A stretch of DNA of 20,433 bases from a virus. The notes beneath the pieces were generated by a model, which had not been told where the DNA came from, ran no database searches, and saw nothing but the letters and a program-made list of their open reading frames with translations. Positions 280-19,497 of the stretch are shown here, one piece after another (position 1 is the first letter of the stretch; every line of letters starts with the position of its first letter). Position numbers and translations under genes: made by a program. The stretch covers positions 1 to 20,433 of IMG/VR virus record IMGVR_UViG_3300021197_000248. One strand, given 5' to 3'.

Positions 280-310
280 GCCCTGACCAGAAATGGTCGG
301 GGCTTTTTTT
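280..310 (+). terminator. Rho-independent terminator
   Basis: A 9-bp stem GCCCTGACC / GGTCGGGGC (one T-G wobble) with a 6-base loop (AGAAAT) is followed directly by seven T. It lies just after the stop at 273 and closes the transcript entering from the left. Confidence 0.93.
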
Positions 311-522: not shown

Positions 523-582
523 TATTCCATCTATACCAGTTATGTTGTTAGCGGTGAGCGATTTGCATAAGTCATTGAAAAC

Positions 583-947
583 AAAGTAATGTTCCCAATG
601 TTCCAAAATGATTTTGCATAATGGAACAATTAACCCATTGATTTTAAAGTAATGTTCCTAATGTTCCAAATGTTCCGTTAAATATATATACAGTACGATA
701 TGAGCCTCTACCCCCCTCATACAGGCAATTCCATACAACATCATTATACCCCTCTAGTACCCTAAAACCGCGGAACATTGGAACATTACTTTAAAAACAA
801 AGACTTACCACGGAACATTACCTGTTTTGCTACGGAACATTGGGAACATTACTTTAATATCAATAAGTTAGCCCATTGACTAACCCCAACCCCATATAAC
901 ACACTACTAACATCTACATACGGTTACTCATACAATAACGGAACATT
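583..947. other. Symmetric GGAACATT/AATGTTCC repeat array; candidate replication origin or operator region
   Basis: AATGTTCC occurs at 588, 597, 651, 660 and 669 (9-base steps within clusters). Its complement GGAACATT occurs at 772, 780, 812, 834, 843 and 940. A variant GGAACAAT is at 623. The left copies all point one way and the right copies the other. A 22-base segment at 583-604 is a perfect inverted copy of 834-855, and 637-658 matches the complement of 843-864 at 21 of 22 positions. Several copies are flanked by TTAAAGT or its complement. The centre (677-771) holds ATATATATAC and pyrimidine-rich stretches. Iterons around an unwinding region are typical of replication origins; paired operators for a repressor would look similar. 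No gene is seen here. The initiator protein is not identified. Confidence 0.7.
867..884. repeat. Palindrome GTTAGC-CCATTG-ACTAAC (one mismatch)
   Basis: Noncoding copy inside the right half of the GGAACATT array. Right arm starts with A instead of G. Confidence 0.75.
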
Positions 948-971: not shown

Positions 972-989
972 GTCAAGATAAGTATTGAC
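972..989. promoter_or_regulatory. Short dyad over the -35 box (possible operator)
   Basis: GTCAA (972-976) and TTGAC (985-989) form a 5-bp inverted repeat with an 8-base spacer; the right arm is the promoter -35 box. It could be a repressor site, but the arms are short and chance is possible. Confidence 0.3.
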
Positions 990-1013
990 ATGTTTACTTA
1001 TATATGCTATAAA
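985..1013 (+). promoter_or_regulatory. Sigma70-type promoter of the early operon
   Basis: TTGACA at 985-990, a 17-base spacer, then TATAAA at 1008-1013, with TG one base upstream of the -10 (TGCTATAAA, extended -10). Transcription would start near 1020, about 27 bases before the first ATG (1047). It is the only near-consensus host-type promoter I found ahead of the long plus-strand gene run, so it is the probable early promoter. Confidence 0.85.
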
Positions 1014-1802: not shown

Positions 1803-2774
1803 ATGAATATGATGAGTAACACAGAGAGCGTTAGCCACACGGCTAACCACATTAACACGGACGACGTAGCGTCTATTTCATCCGCTGCGCTCCTAGTTCA
1901 GATGTCCATATCGAATTGGGCGGGGCGTAAGCTAGATCGCAAAGCGTCTGCCGAAGTATCGGACGCCAACGCCGCCGAGCGCGGTATGGCTAACGTGAAC
2001 AAAAAGCTGTTGGGTAACAATGAATACCTCAAAGCTATACAGACGCACGTATCTGCGGCGCGTGATATGCACACACGCATGACGATGCCTTGGGGTAAGA
2101 CAGGTTGGCAGCTATGCCCGACCGAACAGTATTTCAAGTACACCGAGACAATGACGCGGATGCAGAATGAGTTCTATTCGCTAGTTCAGCAGTTCTTGGA
2201 TAACTACGAGCAGGCTGTCGAAGATGCTCATGTTTTCTTGGGCGAGCTTACGAACCCTGACGACTACCCGAGCCTAGAGAAGTTGTCACGCAAGTTCGCA
2301 TTCAATCTCGATGAAATGCCGCTCCCAACGTCTGGCGACTTTCGCTTGGATATCGGCAACGAAGGACTTAGCCAACTGGCTAACAAGTACGAGAAGTTCT
2401 ACACCACACAGTTCGAGACAGCTATGAACGACATATGGAAGCGTACATATGATGCGCTGTCCAAGATGTCAGAACGTCTCGACTACGAAACCGAAATCGA
2501 AGAATATGTAGATGATGCAGGACGTACCAAGCGCCGTAAACTTGGAGCCAAGACGTTCCGCGATACGCTCGTATCCAACGTGACCGAGATGGTTGACCTG
2601 CTCAAGGTTAGCAATGTGACTAACTCACCGCAAATGACTGCAATGGCAGATCGACTTGAAGAAGCCATGTTGGATGTGACACCCGCCGCATTACGTGACG
2701 ACGAGTTGTTGCGTAAGCAAACAAAAGCCGAAGTAGACGCAGCAATCGCTGCGCTACCAACATTAGACATATAA
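1803..2774 (+). CDS. Phage protein of the MoxR/VWA-associated type (possibly DUF3150)
   Basis: GGAG at 1792-1795 with 7 bases to the ATG at 1803 selects this start over the ATG at 1797; 323 residues. The N-terminal peptide NTESVSHTAN is encoded by a palindrome block that recurs in the gene at 5526. After it come features I associate with a phage family found beside MoxR ATPases: SISNWAGRKLDRKASAEV (about 35-52), a TMPWGKTGWQLCPTEQYFKY region (about 94-113), and LPTSGDFRLDI (about 174-184), followed by a long helical, charged C-terminal half. I recall the family as DUF3150 but cannot confirm the number. The next genes are a MoxR ATPase and, three genes on, a VWA protein, so it probably works with them. 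Two more palindromes lie within it (2367, 2607). Confidence 0.75.
   Translation: MNMMSNTESVSHTANHINTDDVASISSAALLVQMSISNWAGRKLDRKASAEVSDANAAERGMANVNKKLLGNNEYLKAIQTHVSAARDMHTRMTMPWGKTGWQLCPTEQYFKYTETMTRMQNEFYSLVQQFLDNYEQAVEDAHVFLGELTNPDDYPSLEKLSRKFAFNLDEMPLPTSGDFRLDIGNEGLSQLANKYEKFYTTQFETAMNDIWKRTYDALSKMSERLDYETEIEEYVDDAGRTKRRKLGAKTFRDTLVSNVTEMVDLLKVSNVTNSPQMTAMADRLEEAMLDVTPAALRDDELLRKQTKAEVDAAIAALPTLDI
1830..1847. repeat. Palindrome GTTAGC-CACACG-GCTAAC (exact)
   Basis: Near the start of the 1803 gene, read as VSHTAN. The 27 bases 1821-1847 are identical to 5541-5567. Confidence 0.92.
2367..2384. repeat. Palindrome CTTAGC-CAACTG-GCTAAC (one mismatch)
   Basis: Inside the 1803 gene, read as LSQLAN. 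Confidence 0.65.
2607..2624. repeat. Palindrome GTTAGC-AATGTG-ACTAAC (one mismatch)
   Basis: Inside the 1803 gene, read as VSNVTN. Confidence 0.65.
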
Positions 2775-2792
2775 GCAGATTGGAGAACAGCT

Positions 2793-3902
2793 ATGTCGAC
2801 TAACACTATGTATGCACTGAGTATCGATGAAATCGTTAACGCTATTGCGGTTCAAGTTCCGTTACCGCCCGAGGACAAGACGACTATTATTGTCGAAGGC
2901 GAGATGGGTAGCGGCAAGTCGTCGATACTCAAAGAGTTGGACGCGAAGTTGTCCGACCACAAAGCCATCTACTTTGATTGTACAACCAAGGCAGATGCAG
3001 GTGACTTGATGTTGCCGAAGTTCAAGGATTTGGACGGCAACGACTACGTTACCTTTGCGACTAACGAAGAGTTGGGTATGCACCTCAAGGATACACCGCT
3101 CATCATTATGATCGACGAGGCAGGTAAGAACCGCGCTATCCAGAACCCGCTCAATCGTTTGTTCCAAGAGCGAATGATCGGTATGCACTCGCTCCATCCC
3201 GAAAGCGTTGTCTTTGCTACAACCAACCTTGGGTTCGAGAATGTGGGCGACATGTTCATGCCGCACACTTGCAACCGCGTATCGTTTGTTCGGATGCGTA
3301 AACCGAATGCGTTGGAATGGATTGAACACATGATCAACATTAACGGCGATGCTGTCACGTTGGCGTTTGTGAAAGACAACCCACAGGTTCTCGCCTCATC
3401 TGACGATGTTAAAGACCCCGAAGATAACGTGTACATCAATCACCCGAAAGCTGTGGGGCGTAGATCATTCTGTACACCGAGATCTCTGCACAAGGCATCT
3501 AACTACATGAAGATGCGGGACAAGCTGACAGACAAGACCCTGACAGCTTTGCTTATCGGTACGATTGGCGCACGGGGCGCGATGGATATGATGGCTCACC
3601 TCAAGTTAGCCGATCAGCTACCTACCTTGGAGAGTATCAAGACTGATCCCAAAAACGCCAAGGTTCCGACAACTGCTGCAGCTATTTGTATGGTTGTGTT
3701 TCGGACGTTGGCAGCTATCGAACAGGATTGGCTCAACGCTTGGATGACATACATGGAGCGGCTTGATGTCGAGGCGCAGGGTATGTTTGCCAATGGGGTT
3801 CGCTCTCCGAAGTACAGCAAGCAGTCGATGGTTATGCAGAACCGCAGGTTCACACAGTGGGCGGCGGATAACTCGTACATGTTCTCATCGGATCAAACAT
3901 AA
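2793..3902 (+). CDS. MoxR-like AAA+ ATPase
   Basis: GGAG at 2782-2785 with 7 bases to the ATG; 369 residues. The Walker A motif is GEMGSGKS (36-43), Walker B is IIMIDE (104-109), the sensor-1 asparagine is N145 in VVFATTN, and R162 in CNRVSFV is a candidate arginine finger. The order and spacing fit the MoxR branch of AAA+ ATPases, which work as hexamers with a VWA-domain partner to remodel or activate target proteins (established for RavA-ViaA and CbbQ-CbbO type pairs). The VWA partner is encoded at 4193. The C-terminal third is helical (the lid region) and ends with a phage-specific tail. The target in this phage is unknown. The stop shares a TAATG with the next small gene. Confidence 0.9.
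   Translation: MSTNTMYALSIDEIVNAIAVQVPLPPEDKTTIIVEGEMGSGKSSILKELDAKLSDHKAIYFDCTTKADAGDLMLPKFKDLDGNDYVTFATNEELGMHLKDTPLIIMIDEAGKNRAIQNPLNRLFQERMIGMHSLHPESVVFATTNLGFENVGDMFMPHTCNRVSFVRMRKPNALEWIEHMININGDAVTLAFVKDNPQVLASSDDVKDPEDNVYINHPKAVGRRSFCTPRSLHKASNYMKMRDKLTDKTLTALLIGTIGARGAMDMMAHLKLADQLPTLESIKTDPKNAKVPTTAAAICMVVFRTLAAIEQDWLNAWMTYMERLDVEAQGMFANGVRSPKYSKQSMVMQNRRFTQWAADNSYMFSSDQT
3605..3622. repeat. Palindrome GTTAGC-CGATCA-GCTACC (one mismatch)
   Basis: Inside the ATPase gene, read as LADQL; the second reading frame of the motif. Confidence 0.5.
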
Positions 3903-4063
3903 TGGGACGGGTTCGTTTGCTTGATAAACAAAACCGTTTCGTCTCACCGAAAATGCGGAGGATGCGGCACACAAGTATGCCGCGTAAATCCGAAACGGGC
4001 GATCTAAAACCAATCAATCGTGCGGCTCGCCGCGCGATTAATAGCGATAAGCAGAGGAAGTAA
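3902..4063 (+). CDS. 53-residue very basic protein
   Basis: The ATG at 3902 overlaps the ATPase stop (TAATG) and the frame runs to TAA at 4061-4063. There is no clear ribosome site, so translation would rely on coupling to the ATPase gene. Of 53 residues, 17 are Lys or Arg (MGRVRLLDKQNR, PKMRRMRHTSMPRK, INRAARRAINSDKQRK). Such a charge suggests binding to nucleic acid or to an acidic partner; the VWA protein two genes on has a long acidic linker. No family is recognised. It fills a gap that would otherwise be unexplained in a tightly packed operon. Confidence 0.5.
   Translation: MGRVRLLDKQNRFVSPKMRRMRHTSMPRKSETGDLKPINRAARRAINSDKQRK
4016..4039 (+). other. Strong hairpin inside the basic small gene
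   Basis: AATCGTGCGGC / GCCGCGCGATT pairs over 11 bp (one T-G wobble) around TC, so the real loop is probably CTCG. No T tract follows. It could be an mRNA processing or stability signal between the ATPase and VWA genes, or a by-product of Arg/Ala-rich codons. Confidence 0.45.
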
Positions 4064-4065
4064 AA

Positions 4066-4212
4066 ATGACAATGACAAATGAAGAATTATTCAAATGGTT
4101 GGAAACATGCCCAACAAAAGAGTGGGCAGCAGTGGAAGAAAACAAGGGCGAGGTGACTGTGTACTTTCCCATAACAGAACAGGAGAATGAAAATGTTACA
4201 GTTAGGAACTAA
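4066..4212 (+). CDS. 48-residue unknown acidic protein
   Basis: The ATG at 4066 follows AGAGGAAG (4053-4060), a good ribosome site; the frame ends at TAA 4210-4212, overlapping the start of the VWA gene (4193). The product (MTMTNEELFKWLETCPTKEW, then an ENKGEVTVYFPITEQ stretch) looks like a small alpha-beta domain, net acidic. Short proteins with an ELF-type N-terminal helix and a following strand are common in phage early operons, but I recognise no named family. Translation through the VWA start would couple the two genes. Confidence 0.6.
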   Translation: MTMTNEELFKWLETCPTKEWAAVEENKGEVTVYFPITEQENENVTVRN

Positions 4213-5431
4213 GCTAACCGAAGAACAGCGCATCGAAAAAGCCGTTGTTCAGATCATGCACAAAGTGCCTGAGATAGGTAGCCTGCTCATGTTGGGCAAA
4301 CGTGTGGTATGTGAGAAAACCAGAACCGCATGTACCAACGGACGTGACGAGTGGTATGGACGTGCGTTTATGCGCGACCTGAATGATAAGCAACTACGCT
4401 TTCTTGTCCTGCACGAAGTGTATCACAAGATGTATCGTCATTTGATTACGTGGCGGCATCTTTGGAAGAAGTGTCCCAACACAGCTAATCGTGCGATGGA
4501 CTACGAGATTAACATCAAGATACTCGACGAGTTCGGGGACTTTGTGGAATGGATCGAAGGCGGTTGCCTCAACGAGAAATACCGCGGTTGGGGTACGGCT
4601 AAAATCTTCAACGACATTTACGAGGAACGTAAAGGCGGTGGAAACAAGAGTGATGGTGATGGCGAAGGCGGTGCTGGTAACGGAGAAGGTGACGGCACTG
4701 GTGACGATAGCTCTGAGGGTGAACCATTCGATGATCACGATTGGGAGAGCGCCGAAGAAATGTCCGAAGATGACAAGCGCGAACTGGAACGTGAGATTGA
4801 CGAGGCTATTCGCCAAGGCAGTATTGTTGCAGGTAAAGCGGGTAGCGGCGGTGTCCGTGACATGGAAGAATTGTTGCAGCCCAAAGTAAACTGGACTGAA
4901 CCATTTCGTGAATTCTTTCTGGCTACCTGCGCAGGCAATGACAACTCGACGTGGCGCAAACCAAAGCGTAGGTTCATAGCACAAGATGTCTATATGCCAT
5001 CGACATTCAGCGAAACTATTGGTGAGGTGTTGATCGGCGTAGACACATCAGGTTCTACGTTTGCGCCGGGCGTGCTACCTGCGTTTATGACTGAGGTTAA
5101 ATCCCTCTGTGATATGCTAACCCCAGAGCGGGTACGCATTCTGTATTGGGACACAGCTATCTGTCGTGCTGAAGTGTACGAGCAGTACGAGTTGGACAGT
5201 CTTATAAATACAACGCGCCCCGAAGGCGGCGGCGGTACGGATGTTAGCTGTGTGGCTAACTACATCGAAGAGCATAAGCTTGACCCGCAGGCTGTCGTTT
5301 TGTTGACCGATGGATATCTGTTTGGAGGGTGGGGACACTGGCATCACCCTACCCTGTGGTGCATCTTGGACAACGCAAACGCCCAACCAAACAACGGCGT
5401 TACAATCCACATCAATTCGGAGGATATGTGA
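4193..5431 (+). CDS. VWA-domain protein with HExxH metallopeptidase-like N-terminus
   Basis: GGAG at 4182-4185 is 7 bases from the ATG at 4193, preferred to the ATG at 4187; 412 residues. The N-terminal part carries HEVYH (74-78) within LRFLVLHEVYHKMYRH and then NRAMDYEIN, as in the putative metallopeptidase domain of the DUF2201 type. Residues about 145-200 form a Gly/Asp/Glu-rich linker. The C-terminal part is a VWA domain with a complete MIDAS: D284-T-S-G-S288, T349 in GGGGTD, and D373 in LLTDG. This is the usual partner of a MoxR ATPase, encoded at 2793. Together they probably form a remodelling complex acting on a host or phage protein; peptidase activity is inferred only from the motif. 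Palindromes lie at 4201 and 5243. Confidence 0.88.
   Translation: MLQLGTKLTEEQRIEKAVVQIMHKVPEIGSLLMLGKRVVCEKTRTACTNGRDEWYGRAFMRDLNDKQLRFLVLHEVYHKMYRHLITWRHLWKKCPNTANRAMDYEINIKILDEFGDFVEWIEGGCLNEKYRGWGTAKIFNDIYEERKGGGNKSDGDGEGGAGNGEGDGTGDDSSEGEPFDDHDWESAEEMSEDDKRELEREIDEAIRQGSIVAGKAGSGGVRDMEELLQPKVNWTEPFREFFLATCAGNDNSTWRKPKRRFIAQDVYMPSTFSETIGEVLIGVDTSGSTFAPGVLPAFMTEVKSLCDMLTPERVRILYWDTAICRAEVYEQYELDSLINTTRPEGGGGTDVSCVANYIEEHKLDPQAVVLLTDGYLFGGWGHWHHPTLWCILDNANAQPNNGVTIHINSEDM
4201..4218. repeat. Palindrome GTTAGG-AACTAA-GCTAAC (one mismatch)
   Basis: Covers codons 3-9 of the VWA gene (LGTKLT frame) and the stop of the 4066 gene, so a hairpin here could affect translation of the VWA start. Confidence 0.65.
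5243..5260. repeat. Palindrome GTTAGC-TGTGTG-GCTAAC (exact)
   Basis: Inside the VWA gene, read as VSCVAN, directly after the MIDAS GGTD motif. Confidence 0.9.
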
Positions 5432-9372: not shown

Positions 9373-9924
9373 ATGAATATCACACAAGAACAAGTAAAGA
9401 AGCTCTTAAGCAACGTAAAAGAACTTGCTATGGTCATGGAGCGTATACCGCACAATGCAGGGGGCGCAGGGTTTGCTGTGTCTACCGATGGTGAAAGTTG
9501 TTTTGTAGGTAAAAACTACATCTTACAAAACAATCTGAAAGAGGGGGATTTCTTTACTGCGCGGGTCGCACCGAACGCAGGGTATCACATAGAGAATACT
9601 CCTCACAAAGTTATTGGGAATGTTTCTTTGTTTGGCGGAGAAACTCCGTTTGCTGAAGATTCTCCGAAAGTGCAGCAAGCCACGCTAGAAGACCGTATTA
9701 TGGCTCTCATGCGTGTAGAAGAACATGCTTACCCACACAAAGTTGGAGAGTTAGCCAGCAAGCTAACTGCTGACGCACAGGCAGTGCAACTAGCATTACA
9801 GCGTATGCACAACGCAGGTGAGATATGGGAAGCTAAGATAGAACGTAAGGGTACGCAGACAAAAGCGTCTTACGTTTTATGGGCGCTCGACGACGAGTGG
9901 TTTGCATTTGTCGATTATGAGTGA
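9373..9924 (+). CDS. Two-domain protein: OB-like N-terminus and winged-helix-like C-terminus
   Basis: The first ATG (9373) is used; its ribosome site is weak (CTCGG). The product has 183 residues. Residues 28-70 (GGAGFAVSTDGESCFVGKNY, KEGDFFTARVAPNAGYH) have the alternating beta pattern of a small barrel such as a cold-shock or OB fold. Residues about 105-170 (LEDRIMALMRVEEHAYPHKV, GELASKLTADAQAVQLALQR, MHNAGEIWEAKIERKGTQTK) look like a winged helix. A nucleic-acid-binding regulator or accessory protein is inferred. The palindrome at 9760 encodes part of the HTH (LASKLT). It might be a candidate reader of the palindromes, with no direct evidence. Confidence 0.7.
   Translation: MNITQEQVKKLLSNVKELAMVMERIPHNAGGAGFAVSTDGESCFVGKNYILQNNLKEGDFFTARVAPNAGYHIENTPHKVIGNVSLFGGETPFAEDSPKVQQATLEDRIMALMRVEEHAYPHKVGELASKLTADAQAVQLALQRMHNAGEIWEAKIERKGTQTKASYVLWALDDEWFAFVDYE
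9760..9777. repeat. Palindrome GTTAGC-CAGCAA-GCTAAC (exact)
   Basis: Inside the 9373 gene, read as LASKLT (second frame). Confidence 0.9.
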
Positions 9925-10598: not shown

Positions 10599-10801
10599 TG
10601 CCTTACGTGCGTAAGCCGAAACTATCGGCAAAAGCAAAAATGGGGACGGGCGTTTATGACGCCCGTTACGCCAATAAAAAAGTTACGTTAACCAAAGCCC
10701 CGTGGGAGGACGACGATGGATGTAGTGACCTTGGATTTCGAGACGTACTACGACAAGGAGTACAGCCTGTCGAAGATGACGACAGAGGAGTACATTCGTG
10801 A
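10598..10801 (+). CDS. Unknown 67-residue protein overlapping the polymerase start
   Basis: The ATG at 10598 overlaps the previous stop (TAATG). The first 40 residues (MPYVRKPKLSAKAKMGTGVY, then ANKKVTLTKAPWEDDD) are basic then acidic and look like a real small protein. The remainder overlaps the polymerase gene by 86 bases in another frame, which is long for this genome. Either the overlap is real, or the gene is a decaying remnant. Without it, 117 bases before the polymerase would be empty. No family is recognised. Confidence 0.5.
   Translation: MPYVRKPKLSAKAKMGTGVYDARYANKKVTLTKAPWEDDDGCSDLGFRDVLRQGVQPVEDDDRGVHS
10646..10666 (+). other. Perfect hairpin upstream of the polymerase gene
   Basis: ACGGGCGT-TTATG-ACGCCCGT, an 8-bp perfect stem with a 5-base loop, lies 50 bases before the polymerase start. 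No T tract follows, so termination is unlikely. An mRNA processing or translation-control role is possible. Confidence 0.55.
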
Positions 10802-12563
10802 TGATAGATTTGAAATCATCGGGTTGGCGGTAAAGAAAAACGGTGGAACTACACGTTGGCTGCAAGGGGAACAATTAACTACACGTTTCTTGTCACAGGT
10901 AGACTTGTCGTCGTGCGCTATTCTTTGCCACAATACAGCATTTGACGGGGCTATATTAAGTTGGCGGTTCGGTGTGCAGCCGAAGCTGTGGCTTGATACT
11001 ATGTGCATGGCTCGCGCACTGCATGGCACGGAGAAGAGTGTCAGCTTGAAAGCCGTAGCGGATCGTTATGGCGTGGGCGTTAAGGGTGATGAAGTCACCA
11101 GAGCGTTAGCCAAGCGGCTAACTGATTTTACCGAAGAAGAAATAGCGAAGTACGCGGAGTATTCTCGCAACGATGTTGATCTGACATACGAGCTTTTTAA
11201 GCTAATGTTCAGCGGATTGCTTGGAAACCAGTTCCCACGGAAGGAATTACAGTTAATAGATCGCACACTACGGATGTTTATTGAACCTACGCTTGACCTA
11301 GATGTGTTTCTTTTAGAGCAGCACCTAGAAGAAATACGCGAGCGCAAGGACAAGCTGCTACGTGACGCGAACATAACAGACAAGAAAGATCTAATGTCGA
11401 ACAACAAGTTCGCTGATCTGCTTAGAAGCCTTGGCGTGGAACCGCCAATGAAGGTAAGTCCTACGACAGGCAAAGATACGTTCGCTTTTGCTAAATCTGA
11501 CGAAGCATTCAAGGCACTGCAAGAACATGAAAACGATAAAGTGCAGTCGCTAGTAGCCGCACGTTTGGGCACTAAAAGTACCTTAGAAGAAACACGCACC
11601 GAGAGGTTTATATCCATCGGTAAACGTGGGCTTCTCCCAGTACCCATTAGATATTATGCCGCCCACACAGGTAGGTGGGGTGGGCAAGATAAAATAAACC
11701 TGCAAAACCTACCGAGCCGAGGGCCGAATGCAAAGAAACTCAAGAGTAGTATTATCGCGCCCGAGGGCTACACACTGATAGATGCTGATAGTTCGCAGAT
11801 CGAAGCGCGTGTTCTGGCGTGGCTTGCAGAGCAAAACGATTTGGTTAGACAGTTCGCTAACGGCGAAGATGTGTATAAATATATGGCGTCTAGTATATAC
11901 AACGCCACAGTAGAAGAGATTACCAAAGACCAAAGGTTCGTAGGCAAGACTACAATTCTTGGTGCAGGGTATGGGATGGGCGCACCTAAGTTCCAAGCAC
12001 AACTAAAGAATTTTGGTGTAGAAGTAAGCGAAAAAGAAGCGCGGCATATTATAGATGTGTATCGAAGTTCCTTTTTTAAGATAAAAGAATTGTGGCAGGG
12101 CGCAAAATTTATGTTGGATAATATGGGTTCCTCAACACAGTACAAAATACCTCTAGGCCGTGCAGGGGTTCTGGAAGTACTCACAAAAGAAAAAGCCATT
12201 CGCCTCCCGTCAGGTCTTTGTATACACTACGAGGACTTGCAGTCTGGTTACACTGAAAATGGGTATGAGTTTACTTACAAAGTTAGGCGAGGCCGAAACA
12301 GAATTTACGGGGGGAAAGTAATAGAGAATGTATGCCAAGCCTTGGCCCGTTGCATCATTGGCGAACAGTTGCTAAACATAGCTGATAGGTATAAAGTTGT
12401 GTTAACTGTACACGACTCTATTGTTTGCTGCGTGAGGGACGAAGAAGTTTCTGAAGCTCAAACGTTCATAGAGGCATGTATGCGTAAAGCACCAGATTGG
12501 GCCGAGGGCCTGCCTGTAGATTGCGAGAGCGGCACAGGTAAATCATATGGAGAATGTGAGTGA
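10716..12563 (+). CDS. Family A DNA polymerase with 3'-5' exonuclease
   Basis: GGAGG (10704-10708) precedes the ATG at 10716; 615 residues. The N-terminal exonuclease shows Exo I D7-F-E9, Exo II N73-x3-D77 (CHNTAFDG) and Exo III Y149-x3-D153. The polymerase has motif A D358-S-S-Q-I-E363-A-R (in IDADSSQIEARV), motif B R407-x3-K411-x7-Y419-G, and motif C H566-D567-S568. All catalytic residues are present and the enzyme lacks a 5' nuclease domain, as is usual for phage PolA. It is expected to replicate the phage genome with the primase-helicase and ssDNA-binding candidate encoded downstream. Two palindromes (11105, 11844) lie inside. It joins the next gene through a GTGA overlap. Confidence 0.97.
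   Translation: MDVVTLDFETYYDKEYSLSKMTTEEYIRDDRFEIIGLAVKKNGGTTRWLQGEQLTTRFLSQVDLSSCAILCHNTAFDGAILSWRFGVQPKLWLDTMCMARALHGTEKSVSLKAVADRYGVGVKGDEVTRALAKRLTDFTEEEIAKYAEYSRNDVDLTYELFKLMFSGLLGNQFPRKELQLIDRTLRMFIEPTLDLDVFLLEQHLEEIRERKDKLLRDANITDKKDLMSNNKFADLLRSLGVEPPMKVSPTTGKDTFAFAKSDEAFKALQEHENDKVQSLVAARLGTKSTLEETRTERFISIGKRGLLPVPIRYYAAHTGRWGGQDKINLQNLPSRGPNAKKLKSSIIAPEGYTLIDADSSQIEARVLAWLAEQNDLVRQFANGEDVYKYMASSIYNATVEEITKDQRFVGKTTILGAGYGMGAPKFQAQLKNFGVEVSEKEARHIIDVYRSSFFKIKELWQGAKFMLDNMGSSTQYKIPLGRAGVLEVLTKEKAIRLPSGLCIHYEDLQSGYTENGYEFTYKVRRGRNRIYGGKVIENVCQALARCIIGEQLLNIADRYKVVLTVHDSIVCCVRDEEVSEAQTFIEACMRKAPDWAEGLPVDCESGTGKSYGECE
11105..11122. repeat. Palindrome GTTAGC-CAAGCG-GCTAAC (exact)
   Basis: Inside the polymerase exonuclease domain, read as LAKRLT (second frame). 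Confidence 0.9.
11844..11861. repeat. Palindrome GTTAGA-CAGTTC-GCTAAC (one mismatch)
   Basis: Inside the polymerase domain just after motif A, read as VRQFAN. Confidence 0.65.
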
Positions 12564-15118: not shown

Positions 15119-15508
15119 ATGCAAGTTCCTGTAGAAAAGCTAACGAAAGCGTACATTAAGATACGCGATAAGCGGGTAGAGATGTCGGCTAAATTCAAAG
15201 ATGAAGATGCGAAACTCGTTGATAAGATGAATACCATCAAACGAGCGTTGTTGGATCATTGCGAAGAGCATAATGTTGAGAGTGTTAGAACATCCGAAGG
15301 GTTGTTTTACCGAACCGTTAAGCAGCGGTATTGGACAAATGATTGGGAACAGATGCACCAGTTCATCATGGAGCATGAGGTTCCCGAATTGTTGGAGAAG
15401 CGGCTTAACCAAACCCACATGCGGCAGTTTTTAGAAGAGAACCCTGACGTGTTACCTAAAGGGCTAAATGTGGATAGCGAGTATATAATTTCAGTGAGGA
15501 AAAAATGA
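15119..15508 (+). CDS. Conserved phage protein of unknown role in the replication block
   Basis: GGAG at 15109-15112 and a 6-base gap select the ATG at 15119; 129 residues. The N-terminal half is a long helix (KLTKAYIKIRDKRVEMSAKF, then DEDAKLVDKMNTIKRALLDH). The C-terminal half contains VRTSEGLFYRTVKQRYWTND and FLEENPDVLPKGLNVDSEYI, with VRKK at the end. The helix followed by a strand-rich region recalls phage Gp157-like recombination or helper proteins, but I cannot assign it. Close coupling (ATGA) with the HTH gene and the ssDNA-binding candidate suggests work on replicating DNA. Confidence 0.75.
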   Translation: MQVPVEKLTKAYIKIRDKRVEMSAKFKDEDAKLVDKMNTIKRALLDHCEEHNVESVRTSEGLFYRTVKQRYWTNDWEQMHQFIMEHEVPELLEKRLNQTHMRQFLEENPDVLPKGLNVDSEYIISVRKK

Positions 15509-15738
15509 CGGATACTGTGTATTCTGACGTTAATAAGACCGCCGAGTATTTCGGTGTGTCTCCTTTCACCATAAGAAAATGGGTGAAGGAAGGTCACATA
15601 CAGCGTGACCATTACATTCGGGGTGGTACAACATACCGATACAATATCCCTGCCATCGAAAAACAGTTGACAGGGGAAGATAAACCTAAACAAATGGAAC
15701 TTCCATTAAAAACAAAGCAAGGAGAACACGATGTCTGA
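15505..15738 (+). CDS. MerR/excisionase-like HTH protein
   Basis: The ATG at 15505 overlaps the previous stop (ATGA); 77 residues. VNKTAEYFGVSPFTIRKWVK (9-28) followed by EGHIQ and a GGTTYRYNIPAIEKQL wing is the pattern of excisionase-type winged helix-turn-helix DNA-binding domains. A basic, Gln/Lys-rich tail follows. No integrase is visible in the window, so a role as transcription regulator or DNA architectural factor is as likely as excision. It is a candidate reader of the dispersed palindromes or the GGAACATT array. It overlaps the next gene by eight bases. Confidence 0.8.
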   Translation: MTDTVYSDVNKTAEYFGVSPFTIRKWVKEGHIQRDHYIRGGTTYRYNIPAIEKQLTGEDKPKQMELPLKTKQGEHDV

Positions 15739-16620: not shown

Positions 16621-16654
16621 ATCGTGGCGGGGACTGATATCCCCCCGCCACGAT
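16621..16654 (+). terminator. Long hairpin between ssDNA-binding candidate and primase-helicase (attenuator-like)
   Basis: ATCGTGGCGGGG (16621-16632) pairs perfectly over 12 bp with CCCCGCCACGAT (16643-16654) around a 10-base loop. Only a short TTT follows, then AAAA, so termination would be partial at best. It sits 8 bases before the ribosome site of the primase-helicase. Partial termination, 3'-end protection of the upstream mRNA, or lowered expression of the large enzyme are reasonable. Confidence 0.6.
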
Positions 16655-16674
16655 TTAAAATGGAGAGCAGCACA

Positions 16675-19497
16675 ATGAAAACAATAGAATTTTTACGCTC
16701 CGTACTAGGCGATGGTGGGCATTACTGCGTATTTGCAGCAAAGGCGTCTACCAATAAACGTGTACAAAAATTTTATGACAGCATAGAATCCGTTGCCAAA
16801 GCCGCAGACCATTTTGACGCAGATGGCTTTGATGTGTATTTCGGTTTAGGTACGCTGCAAGAAGCAGGGAACCGCAAGAAAGAAAACGTAGCCACACTAA
16901 AAGCTTTGTTTTTAGATTTAGACTGTGGGCCGAGTAAAGAATACCCTGATCAGCAGAGCGCGATACAAGCCCTTAGAGATTTTGTAGGGGACGTGAATTT
17001 ACCTAAGCCCATGTTGGTAAACTCAGGGCGAGGTGTACATGTGTACTGGCCCTTGGATAAACCTGCGCCGTTAGCCGAGTGGCTAACCGTTGCGGAGCGG
17101 CTTAAAAAAGTATGTGCAGAGCGTGGGCTACTGGCAGACCCTGCGGTAACATCGGACGCAGCACGGATACTGCGGATACCAAACACCCATAACTATAAAG
17201 ATGATCCCCCACTTCCAGTAGAGCGGATAGGAGTGACTGAACCAAAGCCCATAGAGCTTTCGGAGTTCATGCAGTCGTTGGGTGCCGAACTAAAGCCCGT
17301 TAACACGCAGATAGAACTAGGGCCAGACGCCCTGCAAGAAGCGCTGATATCCAACAAAGAGAGTGTATTTAAAACTATCGTTACCAAGACTTTAAACGGT
17401 AGAGGCTGCGCACAGCTTAAAAACGTGTGGGAGAACCAGACCACAATAAGCGAACCATTGTGGAGGGCGGGGCTATCTATTGCCAAGTTTTGCACAGATG
17501 CGGCTGTCGCTGCTGTGAAGATATCAGAAAAACATCAAGGGTACGACCATGACGATATGCAGCGTAAGCTATCCGAAATTAAAGGGCCGTACACTTGCAA
17601 AAAGTTCGATGAATTAAACCCTAACATATGCGATGATTGCCCGTTAAAGGGCCAGATAAAATCTCCCATAACGATAGGGCAGAAGATAAAAGAAGCAAGC
17701 GGCCCCGTAGAAGTCAAAGCCAAAAGCATGTTGGGTGGCCCTGTAGAGAAAACTTTTAGTATCCCTGTCTACCCACGCCCATATTTTAGAGGCGAGAACG
17801 GCGGAGTGTATCTACGCACCGTGAACAGAGACGGAGATCCCGAAGAGATTGTGGTTTACCAGAACGATTTATACGTCACGCGAAGGCTACGAGATGCAGA
17901 ACTTGGTGAGATAATCGCATTTTGCTTACATCTCCCAAGGGACGGGGTACGAGAGTTCACTGTACCTTTAACATCCGTAACTTCCCGCGATGAGTTTCGT
18001 AAAAACATGTCCATGCACGGCGTAGCTGTATTTGGCATAAAGCCATTGGAGGCGTTGATGGCATACACACAGAGGTGGATTGAAGAGTTGCAAGCAAAGA
18101 GTACAGCGGATGAAGCACATCGGCAGTTTGGTTGGGTTGACGACGATCTTATGGAGGAGTTTGTTCTAGGGGATAAACTCATAATGGGCGATGATATCCG
18201 ATACAATCCTCCCTCTGTAAAAACAGGCGGTATGTTAGAAGCGTTTGTAGAGAAGGGCACAGAAGATGCGATCAAGAGTAACCTTGAATTCTACAACCGC
18301 CCTAATTGGGAATTGCATCAGTTTATTATAGGTATGAGTTACGGTTCCATCCTCATGCCGTTCACGGGCATAAACAGTCTTGGGGTGCATCTTGTAAGCC
18401 AGACAGGTTTCGGCAAGACGACAACTTCTCAGGCGGCGTTGTCCATATGGGGCAACTCTGAACTGTTAATTTTACAGAAGGCTGACACGCAAAACTCCCG
18501 CATGAACCGTGGAGAATTATATCATAATCTGCTGCTCGTCTCTGATGAGATGACAAACCTTACCACGTTACAGATGTCGGAGTACGCCTATGCGTTATCG
18601 GGCGGCAGACAGAAAAATCGGCTAGCACAGAGCGGTAATACTGAACGTGCGCGTGGTAAACCGTGGAGACTGCTAGCCTTGAGTTCCGCTAACACCAGTG
18701 CATGGGACATACTTTCAAGAGAGAAGGCTGAACCGACAGCAGAGATGCAACGGCTGTTAGAATTGAAAGTTCCGCAGAAGCTGACCGATCCTAGAGTAAA
18801 GCGGCAGGCTGATGAACTGCTCAAGTCTATAGAGCGCAACTACGGTTGGCTAGCTGTAGAGTATGTGCAATGGGTTATAAACAACAGGGCCAACGCGGAG
18901 CAGCTTGTGTTAGACGCACAGAAACGTATAGACGCAGCGGCGGGGTTGGCTTCAGAAAACCGATTTTGGTCTGCGGGGTGCGCTACAATTATTGCAGGGC
19001 TAATCATAGCCAAGCAGTTAGGGCACGTAAATTACGATGTGAAAAGCATATTCAATTGGGTTGTGGGGGAACTACGAGAGCGCAAAGCTTTTGTGGATGA
19101 TATAGGTTCGTCGGTTCAAGAGACGTTGAGCAACTACATAGCGGAACACTACAACAATATCCTTATGATCGATAGCAACGAAGATTTGCGCGGTGTGGGG
19201 GAAAACGACAACGGGCTTGATACGCTTGTACGCCCCGAAGCTGTACCGAGGGGGCAACTTGTGGCGCGGTACGAACCCGATACGAACAAATTATTCTTGC
19301 TACCTAAACCACTAAAAGAGTGGAGCGCCGACCATCAACTGAATTACACGGCGTTTACAAACGAACTAAAAGATAAGCTAGGGGCCAGACGCGCTAAGAT
19401 ACGTATCACCAAAGGCACGAAGATGGCGATGCCTGCAGTGTGGGTTCTTGAGTTAACATTTAAACTGGATATAGTAGATGAAGGTAGCAAAGATTGA
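16675..19497 (+). CDS. Primase-helicase (AEP-like primase with DUF927-like ATPase)
   Basis: GGAG at 16662-16665 and nine bases lead to the ATG at 16675; an upstream GTG at 16624 falls in the hairpin and is rejected. The product has 940 residues. Residues about 1-190 form an archaeo-eukaryotic primase-like domain: D81-L-D83 in LFLDLDCG, H122 in NSGRGVHVYW, and SDAARILRIPNTHN. A middle region has C308, C319 and C322 in GPYTC...NICDDCP, a zinc-type element. The C-terminal ATPase has Walker A SQTGFGK581TT and Walker B LLLVSD624E, as in DUF927-type phage helicases. It should unwind the fork and make primers for the family A polymerase. One palindrome (17070) encodes LAEWLT. It overlaps the next gene by 20 bases. 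Confidence 0.9.
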   Translation: MKTIEFLRSVLGDGGHYCVFAAKASTNKRVQKFYDSIESVAKAADHFDADGFDVYFGLGTLQEAGNRKKENVATLKALFLDLDCGPSKEYPDQQSAIQALRDFVGDVNLPKPMLVNSGRGVHVYWPLDKPAPLAEWLTVAERLKKVCAERGLLADPAVTSDAARILRIPNTHNYKDDPPLPVERIGVTEPKPIELSEFMQSLGAELKPVNTQIELGPDALQEALISNKESVFKTIVTKTLNGRGCAQLKNVWENQTTISEPLWRAGLSIAKFCTDAAVAAVKISEKHQGYDHDDMQRKLSEIKGPYTCKKFDELNPNICDDCPLKGQIKSPITIGQKIKEASGPVEVKAKSMLGGPVEKTFSIPVYPRPYFRGENGGVYLRTVNRDGDPEEIVVYQNDLYVTRRLRDAELGEIIAFCLHLPRDGVREFTVPLTSVTSRDEFRKNMSMHGVAVFGIKPLEALMAYTQRWIEELQAKSTADEAHRQFGWVDDDLMEEFVLGDKLIMGDDIRYNPPSVKTGGMLEAFVEKGTEDAIKSNLEFYNRPNWELHQFIIGMSYGSILMPFTGINSLGVHLVSQTGFGKTTTSQAALSIWGNSELLILQKADTQNSRMNRGELYHNLLLVSDEMTNLTTLQMSEYAYALSGGRQKNRLAQSGNTERARGKPWRLLALSSANTSAWDILSREKAEPTAEMQRLLELKVPQKLTDPRVKRQADELLKSIERNYGWLAVEYVQWVINNRANAEQLVLDAQKRIDAAAGLASENRFWSAGCATIIAGLIIAKQLGHVNYDVKSIFNWVVGELRERKAFVDDIGSSVQETLSNYIAEHYNNILMIDSNEDLRGVGENDNGLDTLVRPEAVPRGQLVARYEPDTNKLFLLPKPLKEWSADHQLNYTAFTNELKDKLGARRAKIRITKGTKMAMPAVWVLELTFKLDIVDEGSKD
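17070..17087. repeat. Palindrome GTTAGC-CGAGTG-GCTAAC (exact)
   Basis: Inside the primase domain, read as LAEWLT (second frame). It is the last copy seen in the window. Confidence 0.9.

Follow-up and report, generated by a model that had tools for sequence, protein, structure and literature searches.

A mirrored iteron array as a likely replication origin in an uncultured phage group

In phage P4 a single protein, alpha, combines primase, helicase and iteron binding, and its type I iterons are 8-10 bp long. In the staphylococcal pathogenicity islands (SaPIs) the iterons flank an A/T-rich stretch. The SaPI Rep helicases recognise the iterons of their origin through a C-terminal domain and apparently bind as two hexamers (PMC7581432). 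At the origins of iteron plasmids, opening is assisted by integration host factor (IHF) or another nucleoid protein (PMC5043065). Here we describe an array of short repeats in the virus record IMGVR_UViG_3300021197_000248 of IMG/VR, all 20,433 bases of which we call the window. Judging from its sequence, the array is probably the bidirectional replication origin of the phage. It would be an iteron origin of known kind in a new form, built from mirrored modules of an IHF-like box and an iteron.

The exact motif GGAACATT occurs at 11 sites in the window, where 0.82 would be expected. All of them lie within 588-947 and none elsewhere, and their polarity is mirrored: five minus-strand copies (AATGTTCC) are followed by six plus-strand copies (GGAACATT).

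274-1046, no strand: non-coding region of about 770 bp, taken from the open reading frame (ORF) list and the sequence; contains the array, palindromes and a promoter
588-604, minus strand: left outer iteron pair, AATGTTCC twice (588, 597)
651-676, minus strand: left inner iteron triplet, AATGTTCC three times (651, 660, 669) in 9-bp steps
677-691, no strand: A/T-rich core TTAAATATATATAC, a candidate unwinding element of 14-15 bp that directly adjoins the last left iteron
772-787, plus strand: right inner iteron pair, GGAACATT twice (772, 780) with an 8-bp step
812-819, plus strand: single iteron GGAACATT
834-850, plus strand: right outer iteron pair, GGAACATT twice (834, 843) with a 9-bp step
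940-947, plus strand: outlying iteron GGAACATT

The steps between neighbouring iterons are 9, 9 and 9 bp on the left and 8 and 9 bp on the right, with the site at 940 as an outlier. The first-pass annotation of this DNA had described five sites facing six in steps of 8-9 bp, and an exact motif count bears out its coordinates. The inverted pair of 22 bp that it had noted (583-604 with 834-855) is indeed perfect, and is embedded in 52-bp arms (553-604 and 834-885) that are 77% complementary. It had also placed an A/T stretch at the centre of the array. The stretch exists (ATATATATAC, 682-691), but it directly follows the last left iteron, and the geometric centre of the array is at about 724. 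The gap between the blocks (676-771) is only 58% A+T overall and, outside the core, just moderately A/T-rich.

Each half of the array contains two composite modules, in which a 13-bp IHF-like box lies 7 bp from an iteron.

568-580, minus strand: left outer box, TAAGTCATTGAAA, which differs from YAANNNNYTGATW at one position; 7-bp gap to iteron 588
631-643, minus strand: left inner box, TAACCCATTGATT, identical to the consensus; 7-bp gap to iteron 651
795-807, plus strand: right inner box, AAACAAAGACTTA, which differs from the consensus at one position; 7-bp gap to iteron 780
858-870, plus strand: right outer box, TATCAATAAGTTA, identical to the consensus; 7-bp gap to iteron 843; overlaps a palindrome at 867-884

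The layout is conserved well beyond the window. Close relatives that cover the region (DUF3150 85-90% identical) carry the same 11 sites with identical spacing; the first-pass annotation had named absence from close relatives as a finding that would speak against an origin. Seven related contigs that include the region, one of them 61 kb long, contain exactly these 11 sites and no others when searched whole. In a comparison of eight distinct close relatives, 99% of iteron bases are invariant, compared with 76% of the other non-coding bases. Two scans seeded with L065, a 68% relative, added about 150 loci. Together with the earlier loci these were reduced to 80 non-redundant loci with sufficient upstream sequence, and each of the 80 was scored for a mirrored array of 7-mers against 20 dinucleotide shuffles per locus (1,600 in all). 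The score reached at least 5 in 63 of the 80 loci, and none of the 1,600 shuffles went above 4. Some of the remaining 17, L065 included, are arrays with more degenerate repeats when inspected by eye. The repeat differs between phages (TGTTCC, TGTACC, AGTTCC, TGTTAC, TGTTCG/TGTTCT, TGTAAC) and is uniform within each array. We would expect such concerted change of many sites if a single protein reads them. In 58 of 62 loci the two blocks enclose the longest A/T run of the region.

The box is conserved as well. Relatives have it beside their iterons as TAAGTCATTGA on the left and as the mirror image on the right, and it fits the IHF consensus WATCARNNNNTTR. Exact matches to this consensus number 57 in the 63 arrays (30 kb), where 4.2 are expected. 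Left of centre 21 matches are in reverse and one in forward orientation; right of centre 34 are forward and one is reverse. As in the four modules of the window, the box keeps a fixed register to an iteron across arrays. Given the match to the consensus, the boxes would be bound by IHF; a different protein with an IHF-like preference is a possible binder too.

The first-pass annotation had assigned a primase-helicase and a polymerase to the downstream operon, and both genes are present.

16624-19497, plus strand: primase-helicase of 957 aa, the candidate initiator, with an N part like the archaeo-eukaryotic primases, a DUF927 helicase and a C-terminal winged-helix-like part
10716-12563, plus strand: DNA polymerase of family A
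15505-15738, plus strand: small HTH_17/MerR-like protein, in 16 of 16 long genomes; a weaker initiator candidate or an accessory one

All 16 long genomes examined encode the primase-helicase. The protein matches DUF927 in Pfam (1.5e-22) and, by sequence, the PDB entry 8tch (E 1.9e-8). Residues 380-957 were modelled with the help of 23 homologues. The model, of moderate quality (mean predicted local distance difference test, pLDDT, 61) and with the winged-helix-like C terminus at low confidence, has its best fold matches in SaPIbov1 Rep (8tch, E 1.8e-12) and SCCmec Cch (5dgk, E 3.6e-12). A single-sequence structure prediction of the whole protein was discarded (pLDDT 35). The initiator of this phage group is probably the primase-helicase, a relative of SaPIbov1 Rep with a fused primase, and we infer that it binds the iterons. 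The helix-turn-helix products at 9373, 10050 and 15505, which had been put forward as binders, make poor initiator candidates. The first is found in three of the 16 long genomes and the second in nine; the third is universal, yet 91% identical between phages with different iterons.

SaPIbov1 Rep and SCCmec Cch are thus close points of comparison: they share with our locus a DUF927 helicase, with significant matches in sequence and fold, and short iterons. For SaPI, two helicase complexes at one origin have also been proposed (PMC7581432). Our locus differs in its helicase, which carries a fused primase and whose gene is about 16 kb from the array, in the mirrored IHF-like boxes within each module, in the iteron itself (AATGTTCC) and in the host, which is probably proteobacterial. 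The iteron origins of pSC101 and R6K and the origin of lambda resemble it in their repeated initiator sites, A/T-rich opening region and sites for nucleoid proteins (PMC5043065). In contrast to these origins, loci of the window's type show no enrichment of DnaA boxes, and both halves are mirrored. P4 alpha, with which we compare by description, differs from the window's helicase in that the latter is of the DUF927 type.

We favour the origin, as the first-pass annotation had done, because the mirrored layout is conserved clade-wide, the repeat changes in concert, an A/T run lies inside the array, the IHF-like boxes are mirrored and a helicase of the DUF927 initiator type is universal. In the mechanism we propose, a phage-coded initiator, most likely the primase-helicase, would bind the 8-bp iterons (AATGTTCC / GGAACATT). 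The two facing blocks would suit, and would load, two oppositely oriented helicase rings on either side of the A/T-rich core (about 677-691). In each module the 13-bp box, at its distance of 7 bp from the iteron, would be occupied by IHF of the host or by a bending protein like it, and bending of each half would make the core melt. Two forks would then depart in opposite directions with the phage primase and the family A polymerase. Both the melting of the core and the start of replication would take place at the array. If this is true, an abundant group of uncultured aquatic phages has a defined origin and a candidate self-loading initiator, and the mirrored architecture hints at a way to bring two helicase rings head to head. 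The iteron variants, with single-base switches in all copies, would also form a natural series for studying how DUF927 initiators read DNA.

Several observations weigh against this reading. The iteron type does not clearly covary with any part of the primase-helicase, and the primase windows show no consistent signal. The array lies about 16 kb upstream of the primase-helicase gene, whereas the SaPI origin adjoins rep (directly downstream). In some relatives one or two sites are wrongly oriented. DnaA boxes are not enriched in the mirrored-array loci (3 matches, 7.4 expected); DnaA boxes are not universal in phage origins. In 13 genomes GC skew, the check that had been suggested, goes exactly with the gene strand and reverts where the early block ends; it gives no independent signal and cannot decide. 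Finally, the gene for the probable small terminase is only about 1.4 kb from the array, and repeats with IHF also form packaging sites.

Covariation did not identify the iteron binder either. The largest coefficients with iteron type belong to DUF3150 (0.066) and to the gene beside the array (0.056). We reject an identification on this basis: the signal generally declines with distance from the array, and hence we read it as linkage.

One could also argue that the array regulates transcription; the first-pass annotation had given operators as its second option. It lies directly upstream of the early operon, for which we read a promoter-like element from the sequence.

985-1013, plus strand: TTGACA-N17-TATAAA, a promoter-like element of the early operon, 37 bp past the last iteron

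Our promoter scan did not list this element since its rule requires a final T. An operator or enhancer array on which a regulator represses or activates early transcription would fit with the facts that short-repeat arrays are common for regulators and that IHF often helps activators. Nevertheless, we consider it unlikely, because the promoter-like hexamers are free of iterons: the closest one ends at 947, 37 bp upstream, and 10 of the 11 iterons are at least 130 bp upstream of the promoter. Sites of the repressor type are already present as a separate family, the palindromes near promoters and starts that we describe below, and operators do not require mirrored polarity around an A/T core.

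A packaging initiation site, of the pac type or like cosB, is about as improbable, though it has to be taken seriously. Here the small terminase would bind the repeats, IHF would bend the DNA and the large subunit would cut nearby. Lambda cosB has terminase-binding repeats and an IHF site, and P1 pac has hexamers at both ends and IHF. Probable terminase genes, assigned by eye from motifs, begin about 1.4 kb left of the array on the opposite strand, and in Pseudomonas phage KPP25 the terminase is about 4 kb from an array. Yet three pairs of phages with iterons changed in every copy (L111/L116, L069/L116, L115/L118) have probable small terminases that are 97-99% identical; in L160/L178, whose iterons differ as well, the identity is 91%. 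A nearly identical protein beside different iterons disfavours the small terminase as the iteron binder. A strongly mirrored array around an A/T-rich core would also be unusual for terminase sites.

A centromere-like or other structural site, for example for the partition of a plasmid-like prophage, is very improbable: repeat arrays and IHF do occur at partition sites, but Pfam finds no ParA- or ParB-like gene in the window, and a search for prophage copies in 84,980 bacterial and archaeal genomes gave three weak relative contigs and no integrated or plasmid copy. In two short contigs from beta-proteobacterial metagenome bins a quick motif count showed no clear array.

We found no nearby phage isolate at the DNA level. 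Parts of the origin layout are carried by distant cultivated phages, which makes these parts testable now (Rollin, RHph_TM3_14A). The primase-helicase of Pseudomonas phage Rollin is 27% identical. At its strand switch, three TATGCAA face three TTGCATA, together with one IHF-like box and a cluster of palindromes; positions 1-700 (L316, OR577172.1) hold the TATGCAA iteron-like repeats and AAAAGGTAG-N7-CTACCTTTT palindromes. KPP25 has TGTTACGA, TCGTAACA and TCGTGACA around an A/T-rich stretch. Its two arrays (L057 and L315, NC_024123.1) lie at 26394-26818, the start of the early block, and at 58257-58535, near the other end of that block; neither has a match to the IHF consensus. Rollin and KPP25 thus have other iterons and a looser mirror polarity than the window. 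In Rhizobium phage RHph_TM3_14A a non-coding gap at about 19.4-20.1 kb contains TAACCCATTGATTTTAAAG, identical to 631-649 of the window; we identified no iteron in this gap.

The more novel part of the locus is a second set of sites, palindromes that are dispersed through the early region. GTTAGC-N6-GCTAAC has 49 matches in the window with at most three mismatches, most of them counted on both strands, where 5.2 are expected. They are found at 388-405, 1068-1115, 1830-1847, 5243, 5550, 8755, 9750, 10217, 11105, 14694, 17070 and other places. Two occurrences lie close to the origin and the promoter.

867-884, no strand: palindrome GTTAGC-N6-ACTAAC, a member of the dispersed family; overlaps the outer IHF-like box 858-870
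1068-1115, no strand: GTTAGC-N6-GCTAAC twice, past the promoter and early in the first gene

Each phage has its own palindrome in about 20 copies in the early region; in the window they lie both between and inside genes. In the 61-kb relative 22 of 24 matches (at most two mismatches) fall into the early region, 39.9-58.0 kb, and the spacer is exactly 6 in 14 of 15. Across the clade there are at least 15 half-sites of the same size class, among them TTCGGG-N6, TTTAGG-N6, GTTAGT-N5, TTACGG-N4 and TTATGC-N5. We considered hairpins in mRNA as an explanation. They are less likely because several palindromes follow terminators in L065 and inner positions are often unpaired. In RHph_TM3_14A (L056, MN988472.1), GTTACC-N6-GGTAAC occurs 30 times at 15.5-47.5 kb when up to one mismatch is allowed (36 kb), compared with 0 for four control palindromes.

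What could read these palindromes? Between the probable terminase genes and the array, relatives carry a plus-strand gene for a very divergent, fast-evolving protein of 170-225 aa, which we call the array-left protein (40114-40689 in G001, loci L020-L023, with equivalents in other loci). In the window this gene would be beyond the left edge, since in L016 and L017 a small second gene intervenes, like the partial ORF of the window. When two phages share their palindrome, identity of the array-left protein averages 0.3-0.6, compared with about 0.2 for other pairs; this is so in every identity band of the AAA protein. In a regression the coefficient for the same palindrome is 0.195 (permutation p 0.0005), and that for the same iteron is 0.018. 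The array-left protein is therefore rejected as a binder of the iterons. Because its identity tracks the palindrome and not the iteron, it is the probable reader of the palindromes.

The closest described parallel is in mycobacteriophages. Those of cluster A have about 20-30 stoperators per genome, which are specific to subgroups and matched by a diversifying regulator (PMC6550527). Our palindromes look like an operator or stoperator system of this sort, with many copies of a phage-specific site that covary with a diversifying protein. Stoperators, however, are 13 bp long, asymmetric and mostly in one orientation, whereas the palindromes are 17-18 bp long and often inside coding sequence.

It is possible, and we put this forward tentatively, that in this clade two recognition systems which evolve independently are coupled at a single locus. 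One would be the mirrored IHF-iteron origin. The other would be a code of dispersed palindromes, with at least 15 sequences, that a fast-evolving, origin-adjacent protein reads and that acts as operators or roadblocks through the early region. The regulator might even compete with IHF at the origin, where the palindrome 867-884 overlaps the box 858-870. If true, phages other than mycobacteriophages would have a stoperator-like system for immunity or timing, whose sites are palindromic and whose regulator could also gate the origin. The covariation of palindrome and regulator would allow groups of regulatory specificity to be predicted from sequence among phages that have never been grown.

The non-coding region 274-1046 separates a plus-strand gene, with its stop at about 273, from the early operon, which spans 19 kb on the plus strand. 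According to Pfam the operon encodes DUF3150, an AAA ATPase, a VWA/metallopeptidase protein and a Holliday-junction-resolvase-like protein. Further products are the family A DNA polymerase, a RecB-like nuclease, an SNF2 helicase and the primase-helicase. The triad of DUF3150, MoxR-like AAA and VWA genes (1803-5431) comes immediately after the array and is present in 16 of the 16 long genomes. Two further features lie left of the array.

280-303, plus strand: intrinsic terminator of the upstream gene, GCCCTGACCAGAAATGGTCGGGGC and a T run
335-365, 414-444 and 531-561, plus strand: three copies of the repeat ACCAGTTATGTTATTAGCGGTGAG; related units follow palindromes in relatives

Dense tandem 7-mers stand at the ends of two contigs, 52 copies of TGGAACT in G013 (63089-63512) and 24 of AACCTGA in G020 (59555-60170); they are either a repetitive gene or an assembly effect. 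The three repeats at 335-365, 414-444 and 531-561 read ACCAGTTATGTTRTTAG(CGGTGAG), and two of the three are downstream of a palindrome. The unit palindrome-N8-ATACCAGT is found again in relatives, and its minus strand has TGGTAT, which resembles an extended -10 element.
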